From contig NC_088297.1 of assembly GCF_032854445.1 (NCBI RefSeq), positions 6,075,991 through 6,139,990 on the forward strand: a DNA stretch of 64,000 nt, in the 5' to 3' direction. Source of the stretch: Liolophura sinensis (Eukaryota > Mollusca > Polyplacophora > Chitonida > Chitonidae). The notes under the pieces were generated by a model that did no database searches, was not told where the DNA came from, and saw nothing but the letters and a program-made list of their open reading frames with translations. A program made the translations under genes and the position numbers. Shown one piece after another: positions 3,201 through 18,200 of this stretch (within the stretch, counting starts at the first letter, position 1; each line of letters begins with the position of its first letter).

Positions 3201-6200
3201 GCCCTAACGCATAATTATGTCACTGTTTAATTACTACTGGTTAACTACTGGTTGTCAAATTGTGTACGGAGAACACAAATGACACTTCACCTTATATACA
3301 CACGGCACTGAGGCATAAACACATCTTTTACAAACAATGCCTTGCAGCAAAGAATCGATGAGCTAATTAGGGTTTATAGCTTTTGAAGCCTGACCTTTCT
3401 CTGTATAGCCTGGTCAGTGTCGTCTAAACACTCAACCACGATCATCTGATAGTCCATGACAAACTCGGGACCCGCTCTCACCAGGTACCCCAGGGCTTTT
3501 AATCCTGCGGAACCAACAACAACAACATCTACACTTAAACTAGAGTTGTATTTATTTAACTGACGTTTTGTCAACATTTTTGACAGCGGTTCAATTTGTG
3601 TCTGCAGGAAACCTCACCAGGTGCATGTACCTGACAAACCTCCCACAGTAAAAACTAAAATTTTACACATAAAACATCATTAAATATAGACAAGTGTATT
3701 TTCCTCAAAACACCTGAACACTAAAACACAACATATACTTCATCAGACACCCGACCAGACACTCAACATGACACCCCACCCAGTCACATTATACTGACAC
3801 TGAGCCAACCAGTCATGTTTCCTTGTTCTAACCTCTCAGTGCTGAGCGACAAGCAAGGCAACAACCAGTACCATTTTTTAGAGTCTTTGGTATGACCTGA
3901 CCTGGGATTGATCCTGGGTCTCCTGACTTTGAGGTGGACACTCTAACCATTAGGCCACCGAAGCTGTCATTATAGAATTTGTATTAAATGGTTGATAACA
4001 CTGTATTCAGACCTAACGGTTACCTAGGCAACAGGATAGTTTTGAGTTCGAACACTTTTACTGCAAATAGGCAAAAAGTTCTTCTACACTAGGTCCCGGC
4101 TGTACGTGGGAAGGCCTGTCAACAGCCTGCAGATTGTCATGGGTTTCCCCAAGGCAATCAAATAAATAGATAAATCTATACCAGATGGCCTGCCAGAAAT
4201 GTAGGCAATTATCTTTGATTACATTCACATGAATTTCTGACAACAATTTCACAAAAACGTTACGTAGAGAAGAGAAACAATAGAGGAACTTGAGGATCTG
4301 AGAATTTGTGAAGCTAAGAAGCTCCTGGTGGAAATGGCTGTCATTTGTGCCTCCTGAACACGGCAAAAACAGGTAAGAGAAAATTAACATCAACAAAACT
4401 TGGCTAACACTTCTGACAATTCACACGGTATCATAGGATTACCTTTTTATGTTTAGTGACAGGAGAGTTCTATATCAAAACTTCTTTCTTACAAGTACAT
4501 GTACAGTTTTTTAATCATTATCCAGAAGCTGCTTTTCAAGCTACTTTATCAAAGCCTTGAAACAGTTTCACAACCTAACCAACAAGTTTGCAAAGTATAC
4601 ATACATACCTGCATATCTCAAGTTATTCCCCTTTGATCGTAGAAACTTCCCGACGTAACTGGCAGCCTTGTACAGTAAATCTGTGTTGGGCCAGATAGTT
4701 GTTATGGTAACCACACACTCAAATAAGATGGCTGAAATGTGGAAGCGAACAAAATTTAAAAATAACACAAAGATCGTGCTATACAGGCTACCAATCTACA
4801 GGTAATTTCCAAAAACTTATACCACGTATTTTAAATCCATAATCAGCAATTTGAACAGGGGTCAGTTTTATGCCAGGTTAAGCCAAGGCTCTCGACATAA
4901 ACCACAAACCTCTGGCAAGGTTCTGACCAACTTTTCCACGTGTGACTTACAGATATGCACATCACTTAATGAATGTTTGACTGCGCAAACAGTCACACGA
5001 GCGTCGTAAACCTCTTACAGTTACCAAGACACCTGAAACAGTGAGAGCAGGGAAAGCAGATACGAATTCCCTGTCTAAGACCGAGTTTGAACCCCCAAAT
5101 ATGCAACTGAAAGGCAGGCCCTTCCACCCACTAGGGCACAGCCCACTCCCTTGCAATAAATTGATTACAGTAACTGTTTTGTTCTAATCAAAAATATCTA
5201 AATGTGGAATTACACACACTGTGAGTACATGCTTTGTTTTGTTAAGATCTTTGTTAAGATTCCAGATGAAGAAAACTACATTAACTTCAATACCTGTGCT
5301 TTGCAGAAGCACATAAAGGCTTTAAAACCTTTGATGCCAACACTTAAGTTTTTCTGATAATAAATTTATAGAACTTCACAAAAACTCTTTCTCAAAAAAA
5401 GTGACCCTATATTAAGTTGGATGAATCAATCAGAATCAAACAAAATATTTCACTTTAAAAGTGATAAATTTCAGTTGAAATACAGTAGTTTCATATTGCG
5501 ACAGCTGTAAAAACACTTGAAACAGGTGCCTGAGAAAACCAACTCACCTTGTTAAGTACCTGACACTTGATTACTTCAGACAACCAGCCTAGCCAAACCA
5601 ACTCACCTTGTTAATTACCTGACACTTGATTACTTCAGACAACCAGCCTGCCCAAACCAACTCACCTTGCAAATTACCTGACATTTGATTACTTCAGACG
5701 ACCAGCCTACCCAAACAAAATCACCTGGGTAATTACCTGACACTTGATTACTTCTGACAACCAGCCTACCCAAACCAACTCACCTTGCTAATTACCTGAC
5801 ACTTGATTACTTCAGACGACCAGCCTACCCAAACCAAATCACCTTGGTAATTACCTGACACTTGATTACTTCAGACGACCAGCCTACCCAAACAAAATCA
5901 CCTTGGTAATTACCTGACACTTGATTACTTCTGACAACCAGCCTACCCAAACCAACTCACCTTGCTAATTACCTGACACTTGATTACTTCAGACGACCAG
6001 CCTACCCAAACCAAATCACCTTGGTAATTACCTGACACTTGATTACTTCAGACGACCAGCCTACCCAAACAAAATCACCTTGGTAATTACCTGACACTTG
6101 ATTACTTCTGACAACCAGCCTACCCAAACCAACTCACCTTGCTAATTACCTGACACTTGATTACTTCAGACGACCAGCCTACCCAAACCAAATCACCTTG

Positions 6201-9200
6201 GTAATTACCTGACACTTGATTACTTCTGACAACCAGCCTACCCAAACCAACTCACCTTGCTAATTACCTGACACTTGATTACTTCAGACGACCAGCCTAC
6301 CCAAACCAACTCATCTTGCTTATTACCTGACACTTGACTACTTCAAGCAACCAGCCTATCCAAACCAACTCACCTTGTTAATTACCTGACACTTGATTAC
6401 TTCTGACAACCAGCCTATCCAAACCAACTCACCTTGTTAATTACCTGACACTTGATTACTTCAGACAACCAGCCTACCCAAACCAACTCACCTTGGTAAT
6501 TAAATGACACCTGATTACTTCAGACCACCAGCCTACCCAAACCAACTCACCTTGCTAATTACCTGACACTTGATTACTTCAGACGACCAGCCTACCCAAA
6601 CCAACTCATCTTGCTTATTACCTGACACTTGACTACTTCAAGCAACCAGCCTATCCAAACCAACTCACCTTGCTAATTACCTGACACTTGATTACTTCAG
6701 ACGACCAGCCTACCCAAACCAACTCATCTTGCTTATTACCTGACACTTGACTACTTCAAGCAACCAGCCTATCCAAACCAACTCACCTTGTTAATTACCT
6801 GACACTTGATTACTTCAGACAACCAGCCTACCCAAACCAACTCATCTTGCTAATTACCTGACACTTGACTACTTCAAGCAACCAGCCTACCCAAACCAAC
6901 TCACCTTGCTAATTACCTGACACTTGATTACTTCTGACAACCAGCCTACCCAAACCAAATCACCTTGCTAATTACCTGACACTTGATTACTTCAGACAAC
7001 CAGCCTATCCAAACCAACTCACCTTGCTAATTACCTGACACTTGATTACTTCAGACCACCAGCCTATCCAAACCAACTCATCTTGCTAATTATCTGACAC
7101 CTGATTACTTCAGACCACCAGCCTATCCAAACCAACTCATCTTGCTAATTATCTGACACTTGATTACTTCAGACAACCAGCCTACCCAAACCAACTCACC
7201 TTGCTAATTACCTGACACTTGATTACTTCAGACAACCAGCCTATCCAAACCAACTCACCTTGCTAATTACCTGACACTTGATTACTTCAGACAACCAGCC
7301 TATCCAAACCAAATCACCTTGGTAATTACCTGACACTTGATTACTTCAGACAACCAGCCTATCCAAACCAACTCACCTTGCTAATTACCTGACACTTGAT
7401 TACTTCAGACGACCAGCCTACCCAAACAAAATCACCTTGGTAATTACCTGACACTTGATTACTTCAGACAACCAGCCTATCCAAACCAACTCACCTTGCT
7501 AATTACCTGACACTTGATTACTTCAGACAACCAGCCTATCCAAACCAACTCACCTTGCTAATTACCTGACACTTGATTACTTCAGACAACCAGCCTATCC
7601 AAACCAAATCACCTTGGTAATTACCTGACACTTGATTACTTCAGACAACCAGCCTACCCAAACCAACTCACCTTGCTAATTACCTGACACCTGATTACTT
7701 CAGACCACCAGCCTATCCAAACCAACTCATCTTGCTAATTATCTGACACTTGATTACTTCAGACGACCAGCCTACCCAAACCAACTCACCTTGCTAATTA
7801 CCTGACACCTGATTACTTCAGACCACCAGCCTATCCAAACCAACTCATCTTGCTAATTATCTGACACCTGATTACTTCAGACCACCAGCCTATCCAAACC
7901 AACTCATCTTGCTAATTATCTGACACTTGATTACTTCAGACAACCAGCCTACCCAAACCAACTCACCTTGCTAATTACCTGACACTTGATTACTTCAGAC
8001 AACCAGCCTATCCAAACCAACTCACCTTGCTAATTACCTGACACTTGATTACTTCAGACAACCAGCCTATCCAAACCAAATCACCTTGGTAATTACCTGA
8101 CACTTGATTACTTCAGACAACCAGCCTACCCAGCAACAGATTTTTTCTTTAAAACAGCAACCTCATCCATCAAGGACAAGAAGCTTCTAATTGTCTGAAT
8201 TCATACAGCTCAGCCAGCAAAGGTAAAAGTTTCTGCTGTACACCGATTTACTTTTCGCGGCATCTTAACACAGCTACACGCAGTTATAAAGAATGAATGA
8301 ATGTTTGAATGAACGCCACATGGGCAATATTTCAGCCATATCATGGCGAGCAGTCATAAAGTTACAAGTTAGATTACCTGTCACTATAACAGAATGCTGT
8401 GGCACATCAAGTCACATTATCATAAATCACCCTAGAGGACATAAAATTTCGTCCACAAGAGTGCACAATTAGATGCAAATAAATGTCACAATATGTTACT
8501 TTTGGTGCTGATGGATATCACACACATATGTACAGGTGTGTCATGTATTCTGATGGATATCACACACATATGTACAGGTGTGTCATGTATTCTGATGGAT
8601 ATCACACACATATGTACAGGTGTGTCATGTATTCTGATGGATATCACACACATACATGTATGTACAGGTGTGTCTTATGCATTCTAATGGATATTACGCC
8701 AAGCTTAAACAAACAAGTCTAGACCACAACAACGACATCTGGCTTACCAAAAGCTGCATTGTCCCTCACAGTGGCTCTTTCCAAAGTCTCTGTTAACACA
8801 CCGTACATCAGAGCACTTGACCTGCACAAGTATACAGGTACAAAGACACGCATATGGTTGTATCAAGGGTTAATTTGATAGACAGGACAATTCTATTCGT
8901 TCATTTCTTTATCTGTTTGTTGTTTAATAACATAATATTTTGCCAAAAAGATATCAGTCAGTTTTAAGGGCGGAGGAAACTGAAGTGCACGAGATAAACC
9001 ACCGACCTCTGGCAAGTTACTGACAAACTTTGTCACGTGACTTGAAAATCTTCACACCATACTGGTGAAGGAGAGTACTTACATCTGCCCAAAAAGTGCA
9101 TTTTTAGAGGTAAATACAGGTAAAGGTCATACAATATTACCTAAGATGCTGTAATTTCATACATTTTCCAAGGAGAATATCCTTCAACCTTCCTAAAAAA

Positions 9201-12200
9201 AAACCCCCAAAAACCTCTTTCTAAAATCAACAGAACTGTCCTTATCAGGATAAATGATTGATTTATTCAAGGAGCAATATTTCACTTATGTGACGGTCAC
9301 AAGCATTATGGTGGGTGGAAACTGGGCAGAGCCTAGGAGAAACCCACAACCATTCGATAGCTGCTGACAGACCTTCCCACGTACGGCCGGAGAGGCAAAA
9401 TGAGTGATTTATTCATGGAGCAATATTTCACTTATATGACGGTCACGAGCATTATGGTGGGTGGAAACCGAGCAGAGCCTAGGAGAAACCCACAACCATT
9501 CGATAGCTGCTGACAGACCTTCCCACGTACGGCCGGAGAGGCATGAGTGATTTATTCAAGGAGCAATATTTCACTTATGTGACGGTCACGAGCATTATGG
9601 TGGGTGGAAACTGGGCAGAGCCTAGGAGAAACCCACAACCATTCGATAGCTGCTGACAGACCTTCCCACGTACAGCCGGAGAGGCAAAATGAGTGATTTA
9701 TTCAAGGAGCAATATTTCACTTATGTGACGGTCACGAGCATTATGGTGGGTGGAAACCGGGCAGAGCCTAGGAGAAACCCACAACCATTCGATAGCTGCT
9801 GAGAGAACTTCCCACGTACAGCCGGAGAGGCAAAATGAGTGATTTATTCAAGGACGAATATTTAACCTATACGACGACAACCAGTGGTGGGTGGAAACCG
9901 GGCAGAGCCTAGGAGAAACCCACAACCATTCGATAGCTGCTGACAGACCTTCCCACGTACAGCCAGAGAGGCAAAATGAGTGATTTATTCAAGGAGCAAT
10001 ATTTCACTTATATGACGGTCACGAGTATTATGGTGGGTGGAAACCGGGCAGAGCCTAGGAGAAACCCACAACCATTCGATAGCTGCTGACAGAACTTCCC
10101 ACGTACAGCCGGAGAGGCAAAATGAGTGATTTATTCATGGAGCAATATTTCACATATATGACGGTCACGAGTATTATGGTGGGTGGAAACCGGGCAGAGC
10201 CTAGGAGAAACCCACAACCATTCGATAGCTGCTGACAGACCTTCCCACGTACAGCCAGAGAGGCAAAATGAGTGATTTATTCAAGGAGCAATATTTCACT
10301 TATGTGACGGTCAGGAGCATTATGGTGGGTGGAAACTGGGCAGAGCCTAGGAGAAACCCACAACCATTCGATAGCTGCTGACAGACCTTCCCACGTACGG
10401 CCGGAGAGGCAAAATGAGTGATTTATTCAAGGACAAATATTTAACCTATACGACGACAACCAGTGGTGGGTGGAATATCTATGTCAAAAGTAGTAAATAC
10501 AGATGATGATAATAGACTGTACTGTACTTTTTAAGTCACACATTTTGATTCCAACAGATTTATCCAGATTCAGCATAGGGGAAATTGTGTTAATTTATTT
10601 ATTTATTTGATTGGTGATTTACGCTGTACTCAAGAATATTTCACTTACACGATGGTGGCCAGCAATATGGCGGGAGGAAACCGAGCAGAGCACGGGGGGA
10701 AACCCACGACCAGCTTTGTTTTAACTTTCATTATTTCTTTTCCGAAAAATTTAATGCTAGCATCAAAAGTATAAGTTTAAGGCCCTTATGTACTTTTGAA
10801 AAGAGAAATTTTATATAACAAGCTTCAGAGAAAATACAGTATTCCACAGCCTTGCTTTACTGTCCCTCACCTTTCCTGCCCTTGCCCCAGAGCGGCCAGT
10901 ATTTTCAGCAGCTTAATCTGTACCCATGGGGCAGGGATGGAGTGGTAGTCTAAGTCTGAGGGCAACTTCCTGCTGATCACCTGGCTAAGGGTGTTCACAA
11001 ACCCCTGGGTGAGGCCACGGTGTGGGGAGGGGTTCTCCTGAAATACACAAGGCAAAAATTTAAAACAAGTCATGAAATGGAGTTTGTATTCTCCCGAAAC
11101 CATGTTCAAGTACATGCATTGTTATTCTTCAATATTTTCGCACGTTTGCAAGGCGTGTACTCAAGCATATTCTGAACGCATTAGTCTGTGTACTCTGATA
11201 AAATTACACTTTCTGTGAAGCCCTGAAACTGCCCAATCCAACCAATGTAGTAGGTTAGGGTATATGTATGCAAAGAATTAGCAATGAAAACTGGTTTCCT
11301 CCCACTGTAATGCTGGCCGTAATCATATATGAGAAATATTCTAGAGTTCAGCGTAAAACACCAATGAAATAAATAAACAAATAAACAGTGAAAATTTGGT
11401 TGAAGTTTACAACAAGTCATGGATAGGAGTTCGGACAGTCCTAAAACACAGTACTTTCAGTACATGCATGCCATGAGTGAATATGAATATCAGGATTCTT
11501 AAAAAATAAACAATTTTAAAGTTTACAGCACTCTATGAATACAGGTTCTCCTGGACTAAACAAAGCCCCACCACAGTGTACTGCCACTTGGCCATTCAAC
11601 GCTTCTCATACCTTCACCCTAACTGCCAATAGAGGCATACAAAGAGTACTATAATTGAAGTCCACGACCTGATCCCGTTCAGAACTGAACAGTTTTCCTG
11701 TCCATGAGGCGGACACTGTAACCACTCAGCCATTACTATGTAGTCAAAGACAATGCCCTCGCATCACATCATATCATTTACTGGCATAGACTTAGCTAGA
11801 ATTTAAAATCAGGCCGTCTCATTTCCAATTTTATCCTGTCTCTTCCATGTTAATTTTATCAGAATAGGGCGTGACTGAGACAGTCACCTGGTTAAACCTA
11901 TATTTACTAGTGATGGTGACACTGAAGTGGCTTAACAATGGGCTGCAGACCTCACATCACCTCATGTGTCAATGCTACAGGTGACACTGAGGTGGCTTAA
12001 CAAAGTGCTGCAGACCTCACATCACCTCCGGGGTCAATACTACAGGTGACATTGAAGTGGCTTAACAAAGGGCTGCAGACCTCACATTACCTCATGTGTC
12101 AATACTACACGTGACACTCAAGTGGCTTAACAATGGGCTGCAGACCTCACATCACCTCATGTGTCAATACAACAGGTGACACTCAAGTGGCTTAACAAAG

Positions 12201-15200
12201 GGCTGCAGACCTCACATCACCTCATGTGTCAATGCTACAGGTGACACTGAGGTGGCTTAACTAAGTGCTGCAGACCTCACATCACCTCCGGGGTCAATAC
12301 TACAGGTGACATTGAAGTGGCTTAACAAAGGGCTGCAGACCTCACATTACCTCATGTGTCAATACTACACGTGACACTCAAGTGGCTTAACAATGGGCTG
12401 CAGACCTCACATCACCTCATGTGTCAATACAACAGGTGACACTGAGGTGGCTTAACAAAGGGCTGCAGACCTCACATCACCTCATGTGTCAATGCTACAG
12501 GTGACACTCAAGTGGCTTAACAAAGGGCTGCAGACCTCACATCTCTTCATGCCTCAATGCTACAGGTGACACTCAAGTGGCTTAACAAAGGGCTGCAGAC
12601 CTCACATCTCCTCATGCCTCAATGCTACAGGTGACACTCAAGTGGCTTAACAAAGTGCTGCAGACCTCACATCACCTCCGGCGTCAATACCACAGGTGAC
12701 ACTGAAGTGGCTTAACAATGGGCTGCTTACCTCACATCACCTCATGTGTCAATACAACAGGTGACACTCAAGTGGCTTAACAAAGGGCTGTAGACCTCAC
12801 ATCTCCTCATGCATCAATACTACAGGTGACACTCAAGTGGCTTAACAAAGTGCTGCAGACCTCACATCACCTCCGGCGTCAATACCACAGGTGACACTGA
12901 AGTGGCTTAACAAAGGGCTGCAGACCTCACATCTCCTCATGTATCAATACTACAGGTGACACTGAGGTGGCATAACAAAGGGCTGCAGACCTCACATCAC
13001 CTTATGCGTCAATACTACAGGTGACACTCAAGTGGCTTAACAAAGTGCTGCAGACCTCACATCACCTCCGGCGTCAATACCACAGGTGACACTGAAGTGG
13101 CTTAACAATGGGCTGCATACCTCACATCACCTCATGTGTCAATACAACAGGTGACACTCAAGTGGCTTAACAAAGGACTGCAGACCTCACATCTCCTCAT
13201 GCATCAATACTACAGGTGGCACTGAGGTGCCTTAACAAAGGGCTGCAGACCTCACATCACCTCATGTGTCAATACAACAGGTGACAGTGAAGTGGCTTAG
13301 CAAAGGGCTGCAGACCTCACATCTCCTCATGCGTCAATACTACAGGTGACACTGAGGTGGCTTAACAAAGGGCTGCAGACCTCACATCTCCTCATGTGTC
13401 AATGCTACAGGTGACACTCAAGTGGCTTAACAAAGGGCTGCAGATCTCACATCTCCTCATGCGTCAATACTACACGTGACACTCAAGTGGCTTAACAAAG
13501 TGCTGCAGACCTCACATCACCTCATGTGTCAATACTACAGGTGACACTCAAGTGGCTTAACAAAGGGCCGCAGACCTCACATCTCCTCATGCGTCAATAC
13601 TACAGGTGACACTGAGGTGGCTTAACAAAGGGCTGCAGACCTCACATCTCCTCATGCCTCAATGCTACAGGTGACAACGAAGTGGCATAACAAAGGGCTG
13701 CAGACCTCACATCACCTCATGCGTCAATACTACAGGTGACACTGAGGTGGCATAACAAAGGGCTGCAGACCTCACATCACCTCATGCGTCAATGCTACAG
13801 GTGACACTCAAGTGGCTTAACAAAGGACTGTAGACATCACATCTCCTCATGCGTCAATACTACAGGTGACACTGAGGTGGCTTAACAAAGGGCTGCAGAC
13901 CTCACATCTCCTCATGCCTCAATGCTACAGGTGACACTCAAGTGGCTTAACAAAGGACTGCAGATCTTACATCTCCTCATGCGTCAATACTACACGTGAC
14001 ACTGAGGTGGCTTAACAAAGAGCCACAGACCTCACATCACCTCATGCGTCAATACTACAGGTGACACTGAGGTGGCTTAACAAAGGGCTACAGACCTCAC
14101 ATCACCTTATGCGTCAATACTACAGGTGACACTGAGGTGGCTTAACAAAGGACTGTAGACATCACATCTCCTCATGCGTCAATACTACAGGTGACACTGA
14201 GGTGGCTTAACAAAGGGCTACAGACCTCACATCACCTTATGCGTCAATACTACAGGTGACACCATTTGTTACAGCTTAAAAAGCTTTCTCACCAGTAACA
14301 ACTGCAGGTAGATATGAAGGGCAGCAGCCATCACCCCGGGGTCCTTATCACAGAGCGCCTCCCTGAACCTGTCTCCCAGGTGCTGGACTGACCCAGGGGA
14401 CTTGAGTTGGAACTTCTGTAGACACATCACTGCCTTCTTCCTCACCACAGGCCTGTAATATTGATTAACTGATTTAGTTAGAAATCAATATTAATCAATA
14501 TAAATCTCGTTAGTTAGAAAATGGGACATTATTCTATTATATACGTATCATGATGGTGCCCAGTTTCCTCCCACCATAATGTTGGCTCCCTTCATATAAG
14601 TAAGACATTCTTTTAGTACGTGGCATAAAACTCCAATCAAATAAATAAATAAATATCATTAATACGTTTCCTAGCAGCATGCCTGAATTTCGACATATTT
14701 CTATACATACTGTACAGACAATATATCAATATATTATATAGACTATACATATTGTGCTGCCTCAGGAGAATGCCAAGCTTAAGACACCAGACGAGACATT
14801 GTGCCCGTTCATAATACAACCCACAGCATGACTGCATGACACCAAATGAATGAATGCTTGGGGTTTAACGTCGTGCTTAAAATTTTTTTACGTCATATGA
14901 CGCCGGGGTGAGTCCATGCCACCGAAGGGCTGGCGCCACTGGAGTATCATGCCAAAGACACCAGACATGACATCCCACCCTGTAATATTATACTGACACT
15001 GTGCAGGCCAGTCATGTTTCTCTAACCTCTCAGTGCTCAGTGCCAAGCAAGGCAACAAAACAAGTATTATTTTAAAGTCTTTGGTATGACGAGACCTGGG
15101 TTTGACCTGGGATCAAAAGGTCATGACAAAGATGTTAAGTGAGCATTAGGAGCAGAGAATTCCTACTCTTGTATTAATTCAAGGAATGTCCACCACATCC

Positions 15201-18200
15201 CCCATTTCTACATTTATCCCCCATTTCTACATTTACCCATTTCTACATTTGTCCCCCATTTATCCTACATTTACCCCCAGTTCTACATTTATCCCCCATT
15301 TCTACATTTACCCATTTCTACATTTATCCGCCATTTCTACATTTATCTCCCATTTCTACATTTACCCATTTCTACCTTTATCCCCCATTTCTACATTTAT
15401 CTCCCATTTCTACATTTATGCCCCATTTATCCTACATTTACCCCCAGTTCTACATTTATCCCCCATTTCTACATTTATCCCCCATTTACCCCCCGTTTCT
15501 ACATTTATCCCCCATGAACATGATTTTTTTTTTTTTGGATTGGTGTTTTACGCCGTACACAAGAATATTTCACTAATACGACGGCGGCCAGCATTATGAT
15601 GGGTTGAAACCGGGTAGAACCCGGGGGAAACCCCCGACCATCCGCAGGTAGCTGATAGACGTTCCCACATACGGCCGGAGAGAAAGCCAGCATGAGCTGG
15701 ACTTGAACTCACAGCGACCGCATTGGTGAGAGGCTGCTGGGTCATTACGCTGCGCTAGCGCGTTAACCAACTGAGCCACGGAGGCCCCCCCATGAATATG
15801 ATGAACACACAGCATACAAACTTGAAGATGATACATTTACTTACTTATTTATTAATTTGATAGTTGTATTACGCTGAACTCAATAATATGTCACTCTTAT
15901 CAGGGTAGCCAGTACAATGGCGGGAGAGAAGCGGGCAGAGAATCGGGGAATTACGCTCATATACACATATACCTGGGATGTTTCAGTGAGCCTACTTGGG
16001 GTGTTTCAGTTTTACTAAGCCCAAGTGGGATGTTTCAGTTTACCAACCAGGTATGTTTCAGTTTCACTAAGCCTACCTGGGATGTTTCACCAAGCCTACC
16101 TCTGATGCTTCCGTGAGCCCACTTGGGATGCATCAGTTTCACTAAGCCGCTCTGGGATGTTTCAGTTTCACTAAGCCGCTCTGAAATGTTTCAGTTTCAC
16201 TAAGCCTCTCTGAAATGTTTCAGTTTCACAACGCCTACCTGGGTTATTTCAGCTTCATGAAGCCTACAAAGCATGTTTCAGTTTCACTAAGCCACATGAG
16301 ATATTTCAGTTTTCAGCTACCTGGGTTGTTTCACTTTCACTAAGCCTACCTGGGATGTTTCAGTTTCTCCAGGACAGAAGGAAGTAACATGGGAGCCATT
16401 TCTGTGTTGACTAGTTGGCACACTGCCAACAATCCCATACAGTTCTCCAACAAATTGCTGCTTGACAAATCCTGTAACAAAAATATTTATTTATTTATCT
16501 GATTGGTGTTTTACGCTGTACTCAAGAATATTTCACTTTTACGACGGCGGCCAGCATTATGGTGGGAGGAAACCGGGCAGAGCCCAGAGGAAACCCAGGG
16601 CCATCCGCCGGCTGTTGGCAGACCTGTAACAGAAATAACATACATGTATGTGCGTCTGTTGGATACATGCATACGTGTGTACTGAATACATGCATATATG
16701 TGTCTGTTGGATACATGCATACGTGTGTACTGAATACATGAGTATATGTGTGTACAGAATACATGCATACATGTGTACTGAATACATGAATATATGTGTG
16801 TACTGAATACATGAATATATGTGTGTACTGAATACATGAATATATGTGTGTACTGAATACATGCATACATGTGTACTGAATACATGAATATATGTGTGTA
16901 CTGAATACATGAATATATGTGTGTACTGAATACATGAATATACGTGTGTACTGAATACATGAATATATGTGTGTACTGAATACATGCATACGTGTGTACT
17001 GAATACATGCATATGTGTCTGTTGGATACATGCATACGTGTGTACTGAATACATGAGTATATGTGTGTACAGAATACATGAGTAAATATGTGTACTGAAT
17101 ACATGAGTATATGTGTGTACTGAATACATGAATATATGTGTGTACTGAATACATGCATACGTGTGTACTGAATACATGCATATGTGTCTGTTGGATACAT
17201 GCATACGTGTGTACTGAATACATGATTATATGTGTGTACAGAATACATGAATATATGTGTGTACTGAATACATGCTTACATGTGTACTGAATACATGAGT
17301 AAATATGTGTACTGAATACATGAATATATGTGTGTACTGAATACATGAATATATGTGTGTACTGAATACATGAGCATATGTGTGTACTGAATACATGAAT
17401 ATATGTGTGTACTTAATACATGAATATATGTGTGTACTGAATATATGTTTGAGTACAGCTTAAAACACAAATCAAATAAATAAATAAGAATACATGTATA
17501 CATGTGTACTGAACATAGCGACAGTTTACTTAAGAGTTCAGAGCATTACAAATTGTGCATCAATATAAACGAAGTACAAAATTATTCTCTGTCAAGTTAT
17601 TCTTGTTTAGGCAATGCTGTTTTCATTAAAAGTTCTTTGTGGCGGCTTTATGACAGGAGATATGACACATGATACTGACAATGGGACGATGAGGATTTAG
17701 CTTATACTCTTTACATTTCTATTAGCCTGTAAGGCAGGAGGTTAGGCAGGTCAGGGGTGAGAATGACTGGTAATTCACTCCTTTTAAAGAACTCAAAATA
17801 AAAATCATGACCACATTTAGTCATTAAGAAGATGACTTATTGAAATGGAAATACATGAATTCAAAATTTCAGACAAACAAGTAAGTGTTGGATGTGTTTT
17901 ATCCTCTTCTAAATTGTTTTACAATCACATAAATGAAATATTAATACTTTTCACCCATTAAAACCATAATTACACGTCAATACTCTAAGAACTGAAAATA
18001 TCAAACATTTTGACCTCTGTAGCTACTTGGTGAAATGCCCTGGCTTCCTTCAGGTTTCCTTCACCAACAAACTTTTCCCCTGATAACCACACAAGTGACA
18101 CATTAATGTGTTGGTACTTGGCGAAATGCCCTGGCTTCCTCCAGGTTTCCTTCACTAACAAACTTTTCCCCTGATAACCACACAAGTGACACATTAATGT

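Follow-up and report, generated by a model that had tools for sequence, protein, structure and literature searches.

Exon 5 of the AP-4 epsilon gene runs directly into a minisatellite whose 29-bp unit joins the last 18 bases of the exon to the first 11 bases of intron 5. The array spans about 15970-16367 and holds 15 copies, namely the exon copy itself and 14 diverged intronic ones. It is most probably a mirage-type minisatellite, that is, a chance duplication of an exon-intron border that was expanded and has been tolerated with the first donor in use. All positions refer to the window, the whole 64-kb stretch of DNA that was analysed, and slashes in motifs mark the splice junction or its counterpart in a copy (Table 1).

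The minus strand of the window carries an adaptin gene of animal type, with exons 1-10 spanning 21529 to 3395. Exon borders were set via the reading frame and GT-AG, and numbering starts at the ATG exon. Exon comparisons, frame joining and protein and domain searches covered exons 1-10, leaving out exon 11 and everything downstream. Spliced in silico, these ten exons give an open frame of 397 codons with no stop. Residues 1-396 of the product align to residues 1-391 of the AP-4 complex subunit epsilon-1 (PDB 9u9i_E, 612 residues, E=2.7e-121), the best PDB match, and the 397-aa product matches Pfam Adaptin_N (E=2.9e-67). Other adaptins were far weaker in the PDB comparison (AP-1 gamma 1.4e-39, AP-3 delta 2.2e-39). 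Among adaptins, the Adaptin N-terminal region is thus nearest to AP-4 epsilon, and the name AP4E1, given to the gene in the preliminary description of this DNA, is right. Joining exon 5 to exon 6 completes the split junction codon AG/G, and the protein reads HPRPVVRKKAV across the junction. Protein searches for orthologues returned one locus in bacterial and archaeal genome contigs, an uninformative 20-residue match in a bacterial bin, and no match in viral contigs; Rfam gave no match at gathering scores.

Table 1 Features at exon 5 of the AP-4 epsilon gene (positions in the window)
Feature	Position	Strand	Remarks
Exon 5	16350..16471	-	122 nt; start phase 0, end phase 2
Exon 6	14293..14452	-	First base completes the split AG/G codon
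Array copy 1	16339..16367	-	18 terminal bases of exon 5 with 11 initial bases of intron 5; carries the authentic donor CAG/GTAGGC (G of GT, 16349)
Array copies 2-15, intronic and diverged	15970..16338	-	Last copy placed by eye
Intronic AG/GT sites, G of GT	16320 (+29), 16238 (+111), 16099 (+250), 16076 (+273), 15972 (+377)	-	
Decoy donor with the authentic nonamer CAG/GTAGGC	16233..16241	-	+111 nt
Decoy donor with the authentic nonamer CAG/GTAGGC	16071..16079	-	+273 nt
tRNA-type SINE, 5'-truncated, A-rich tail (GATAAATAAATAAA), adjoining the exon 5 acceptor	16486..16622	-	Outer limits by eye
Inner target-site duplication copy TATTTTTGTTACAGG	16471..16485	-	Authentic exon 5 acceptor and first exon base
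Outer target-site duplication copy TATTTCTGTTACAGG	16623..16637	-	Decoy acceptor upstream of the SINE

Tandem Repeats Finder reports the 29-bp array at 15980-16367 (14.2 copies, score 279). Its consensus, reverse-complemented and rotated by hand, reads GAAACTGAAACATCCCAG followed by GTAGGCTTAGT, which is the end of exon 5 and its donor: exon 5 terminates in GGA GAAACTGAAACATCCCAG, intron 5 starts with GTAGGCTTAGT, and the unit consists of the 29 bases from GAAAC onward. The exon copy is identical to this consensus, which includes it, at 29/29 positions. The preliminary description had proposed a unit made of about 18 bases of exon end and the 5' splice site, and this composition is borne out. 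It had placed the array at 15971-16358 with about 13 copies; the array is real, but both extent and copy number need correction, the intronic copies numbering 14 in a wraparound alignment over 16367-15980 to which one final partial copy was added by eye, reaching about 15970. Similarity does not halt short of the splice site, the outcome that had been named as speaking against a duplicated border, because the alignments of intronic DNA to the exon border cross it: one intronic stretch is 97% identical over 36 bases (13 exonic, 23 intronic) and a second 88% over 41 bases (18 exonic, 23 intronic). The upstream limit of similarity falls within the exon (CCTGGA/GAAAC vs CTTAGT/GAAAC, the slash here marking that limit). 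When up to 3 mismatches are allowed, the sequence of the 18 exonic bases occurs 11 times in the window, once as the exon itself and ten further times. Every occurrence is on the minus strand and within the array, and shuffled sequence predicts 0.10.

The exon copy has the properties expected of a conserved founder. A base is present in 27 of the 29 columns of the intronic consensus (14 copies), and all 27 are identical to the exon copy, which was included in the alignment; a gap leads in the two other columns, where the most frequent letter again matches the exon (A in 5/14, G in 6/14). The mean identity of the exon copy to the other copies is the highest (0.868), with the rest at 0.708-0.832. 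The exonic letters spell EKLKHPR, which aligns well with DKLQHSK of the PDB AP-4 epsilon-1, and this supports a direction from exon to array. Arrays are common in the AP-4 epsilon gene, and a pre-existing intronic minisatellite might have spread onto the exon end by conversion, but the well-aligned residues and the correct phase-2 junction are not expected of a random repeat, making this reverse direction highly improbable. A mis-assembled array or copy number is more doubtful still and can be considered extremely unlikely, as the copies are diverged (mean identity 0.71-0.87) and carry private indels, unlike wrongly repeated reads.

We hypothesize that a 29-bp tandem duplication straddled, by chance, the border between exon 5 and intron 5 and would thereby have placed a second exon end and donor inside the intron. 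Slippage or unequal exchange would have expanded the array to its present 15 copies, with the exon copy held by coding and splicing constraint and the intronic copies free to drift. The exonic part of the unit has two occurrences of GAAAC, and GAAA starts 8 of the 10 copies listed, a recurrence which may have helped slippage; because the original intron flank is lost, such a role can only be inferred.

The intronic copies contain a gapped ladder of decoy donors. AG/GT is retained in 5/14 of them and CCAG/GT in 4/14, in exact agreement with the at least four further CCAG/GT copies claimed earlier. The gaps arise because three copies, adjacent to one another, have CAG/AG, with AG instead of GT, and because the G at -1 is gone in 5/14. 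AG/GT is lost in 9/14 overall. Donor strength was scored with a simple model that uses a vertebrate donor frequency table. Among the 130 GT sites of intron 5 the top four are the authentic donor (9.68), the decoys at +111 and +273 (both 9.68) and GAG/GTAGGC at +250 (8.76), with U1 pairing energies of -10.7, -10.7, -10.7 and -9.3 kcal/mol, respectively. The decoys that had been proposed thus exist, and the scoring identifies two with the same nine bases as the authentic donor; these two, at 16238 and 16076, also retain a good part of the exonic stretch next to it, altered in places and with one deletion. Since two decoys equal the authentic nonamer and a third scores nearly as high, a simple donor model fails to explain why the first donor should win. 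As a control, the whole minus strand of the window was scored, giving 42 sites at or above 9.68, of which three lie in the array, the authentic donor included, and 0.60 per kb occur elsewhere. Donors of this strength are not rare in the DNA of the window, but a pair of them in the 0.39 kb that follow an exon is a high density.

Use of any of these decoys would cut the protein short. Read through the authentic donor, the frame continues as CAT CCC AGG TAG, and the TAG that immediately follows the codon holding the true junction ends the protein at EKLKHPR whichever decoy is used. A lengthened protein is therefore impossible. The preliminary description had expected each decoy to lengthen the exon by a multiple of the array period; however, indels have broken this period, and of the offsets +29, +111, +250, +273 and +377 only +29 is divisible by 29. 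A function as an exon-lengthening ladder is ruled out by the TAG right after the junction codon together with extensions that are mostly not multiples of 29. An mRNA with an early stop ahead of downstream exons is expected to undergo nonsense-mediated decay, and decay of decoy-spliced mRNA is to be expected here because at least five exons remain downstream of the premature stop. In the favoured sequence of events, the first donor is most likely still used in splicing, whereas mRNA from later donors would meet the stop and should be degraded; the array would then yield no new protein and would be tolerated as near-neutral DNA.

The same closed frame would allow the decoys to act as poison donors, used appreciably at +111, +250 or +273 to reach the early stop, so that length and sequence of the array tune AP-4 epsilon output. 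All products of decoy splicing are frame-closed, and the sites at 16238 and 16076 share with the authentic donor its nonamer, its U1 energy of -10.7 kcal/mol and much of the exonic stretch. We nevertheless regard such regulation as unlikely, given that AG/GT is lost in 9 of the 14 intronic copies with no sign of being kept and that the amphioxus precedent reports regular splicing (PMC3087553). A further reading is a benefit of the additional U1-binding sites, through U1 recruitment that strengthens exon definition or blocks premature intronic polyadenylation. Five more AG/GT sites lie no further than 380 nt from the exon, with U1 energies of -7.7 kcal/mol or better at four of them and -7.2 at the fifth. 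The donor columns, however, are conserved less than most of the unit, and at 9.68 the authentic donor is by itself a strong one in this gene, where eight other donors that were scored reach 4.38 to 11.59; a benefit of this kind is very unlikely. Donor columns are conserved in 38/56 cells vs 193/224 in the remaining unit (Fisher p=0.003), or in 36/48 vs 163/192 when the three related AG copies are collapsed to one (p=0.13), the columns having been chosen post hoc in both comparisons. That the donor columns are less well conserved could point to selection acting against decoys instead of neutrality, a signal which does not survive the collapse of related copies.

Sites of recursive splicing, or ratchet sites, combine a polypyrimidine tract with a CAG and a good donor directly behind it. 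The pyrimidine fraction from -20 to -4 is 0.29-0.53 at the six AG/GT sites, authentic included, and 0.53-1.00 at nine true acceptors. Five of the six sites lie below every true acceptor and the remaining one, at 15972, equals the lowest acceptor. Recursive splicing at CCCAG/GTAG appears unlikely.

The acceptor of exon 5 is duplicated as well. The SINE that adjoins it is 86% identical over 111 bases (16501-16611) to a SINE at 15532-15787, and its flanks, TATTTCTGTTACAGG and TATTTTTGTTACAGG, agree in 14/15 bases, forming a target-site duplication that holds the acceptor. The earlier claim that both splice borders of exon 5 are duplicated, with a SINE on this side, is thus confirmed, and two unrelated routes were involved, since the array copies the donor and the target-site duplication copies the acceptor. 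The outer acceptor has a pyrimidine fraction of 0.65, not below that of the authentic one (0.53), and splicing to it would insert 152 nt containing in-frame stops; both decoy sets, donor and acceptor, are frame-closed. One could combine these features, two borders duplicated by unrelated routes and all decoy products frame-closed, into a length-variable rheostat of poison donors, in which decoy use would be frequent enough for the length of the array to determine what fraction of AP-4 epsilon mRNA goes to decay, but we consider this quite improbable. Intron 5 contains the SINE at 15532-15787, a long copy that has an A-rich tail; the duplication flanking it, CCCCCATGAAYATGAT, was read by eye. 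Near the far end of the array, at 15856-15940, lies a decayed tail-side part of the same SINE, which was missed in a similarity search at E<=1e-4 and has an alignment score of 60 vs a maximum of 28 in 200 shuffles. Strings from the SINE had no match in viral contigs or in the literature searched.

By its anatomy, the exon 5 array fits a kind of minisatellite already known from amphioxus as mirages, the founding paper on which reportedly concerned Adh. The unit spans the exon-intron boundary, similarity extends across the splice site, and the copies stand in tandem with AG/GT kept in a part of them. Amphioxus mirages are minisatellite-like tandem duplications of an exon-intron boundary, found in Adh3 and in the globin genes BflGb6 and BflGb9; they affect 5' and 3' boundaries, show AG/GT in many but not all copies, have units of 10-72 bp in Adh3, and include length instability between alleles among their features (PMC3087553). 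Adh3 data and RT-PCR suggest no interference with regular splicing, and the copies could act as cryptic sites (PMC3087553). The present array shares the tandem duplication of a boundary with AG/GT in part of the copies, and differs in the gene (AP-4 epsilon), in its 29-bp unit and 15 copies, and in that the acceptor of the same exon is also duplicated, via a SINE target-site duplication. In an amphioxus the exon 5 array would be a further example from the same clade, whereas in a mollusc, an origin that the SINE may suggest, it would be an example outside that clade. No mirage in AP4E1 or in a mollusc was found in the literature searched (titles and abstract openings).

Two further systems resemble the exon 5 array in part. 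Human segmental duplications contain internal tandem repeats at exon-intron boundaries, with a mean unit of 30 bp and the potential to create new splice sites (PMC2812944). These are likewise minisatellites at a border, however, they are recent, about half of them lie in coding exons, and they rest on transcripts (PMC2812944), the exon 5 array on genomic DNA. In the Rogers model, introns are gained via tandem duplication of an AGGT segment, and multiple 24-bp duplicates in fission-yeast genes are cited (PMC4974935). The duplicated segment here contains AG/GT too, but this AG/GT was already an exon border, the copies lie inside an existing intron, and the stretches upstream of them are mostly purine-rich (pyrimidine fraction 0.29-0.53) and poor as acceptors. 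Intron gain of this type was rejected for the copies, which sit within intron 5 beside the true border, the exons on either side belonging to a single open frame.

The array provides a natural competition assay: one donor recurs in copies, of which two are identical to it over nine bases, at fixed distances downstream of a single exon. In AP-4 epsilon exon 5 each donor choice is readable, and the protein is made by the first donor only.

A special process is unnecessary for a border-spanning array in this gene. With nine unit lengths, 19 borders and 21.5 kb, 0.45 border-spanning founders are expected by chance, P(>=1) being 0.36, in a crude estimate that assumes uniform placement and full tolerance. 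The array also suggests that border-spanning minisatellites, which the papers found describe for amphioxus and, in related form, for human segmental duplications, arise in any genome that forms tandem arrays in large numbers. With about 0.45 expected in this gene region, by the same crude estimate, they should be countable in such genomes. Tandem Repeats Finder lists 82 tandem-array rows in the 64-kb window, some of which represent the same array. For the comparison with exons, nine larger arrays of the gene region were hand-picked from these rows, small rows (scores 40-54) being left out. Only the 29-bp array matches an exon among exons 1-10; the other picked arrays share no more than 10-14-base words with them and were rejected as mirages.

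Three of these other arrays deserve mention. A 65-bp, 36-copy array at 11915-14262 in intron 6 starts 31 nt past the exon 6 donor and is unrelated to exon 6. The 59-bp, 44-copy array at 5536-8132 in intron 8 has no match to exons 1-10, and its minus-strand consensus, read by eye, contains two good donor-like strings, AAG/GTGAGTT and CAG/GTAATT. The 146-bp, 8.3-copy array at 9252-10455 is a SINE turned minisatellite: its unit contains the internal part of the tRNA-type SINE found beside exon 5, with eight matches of 119-120 bases each at 74-79% identity.
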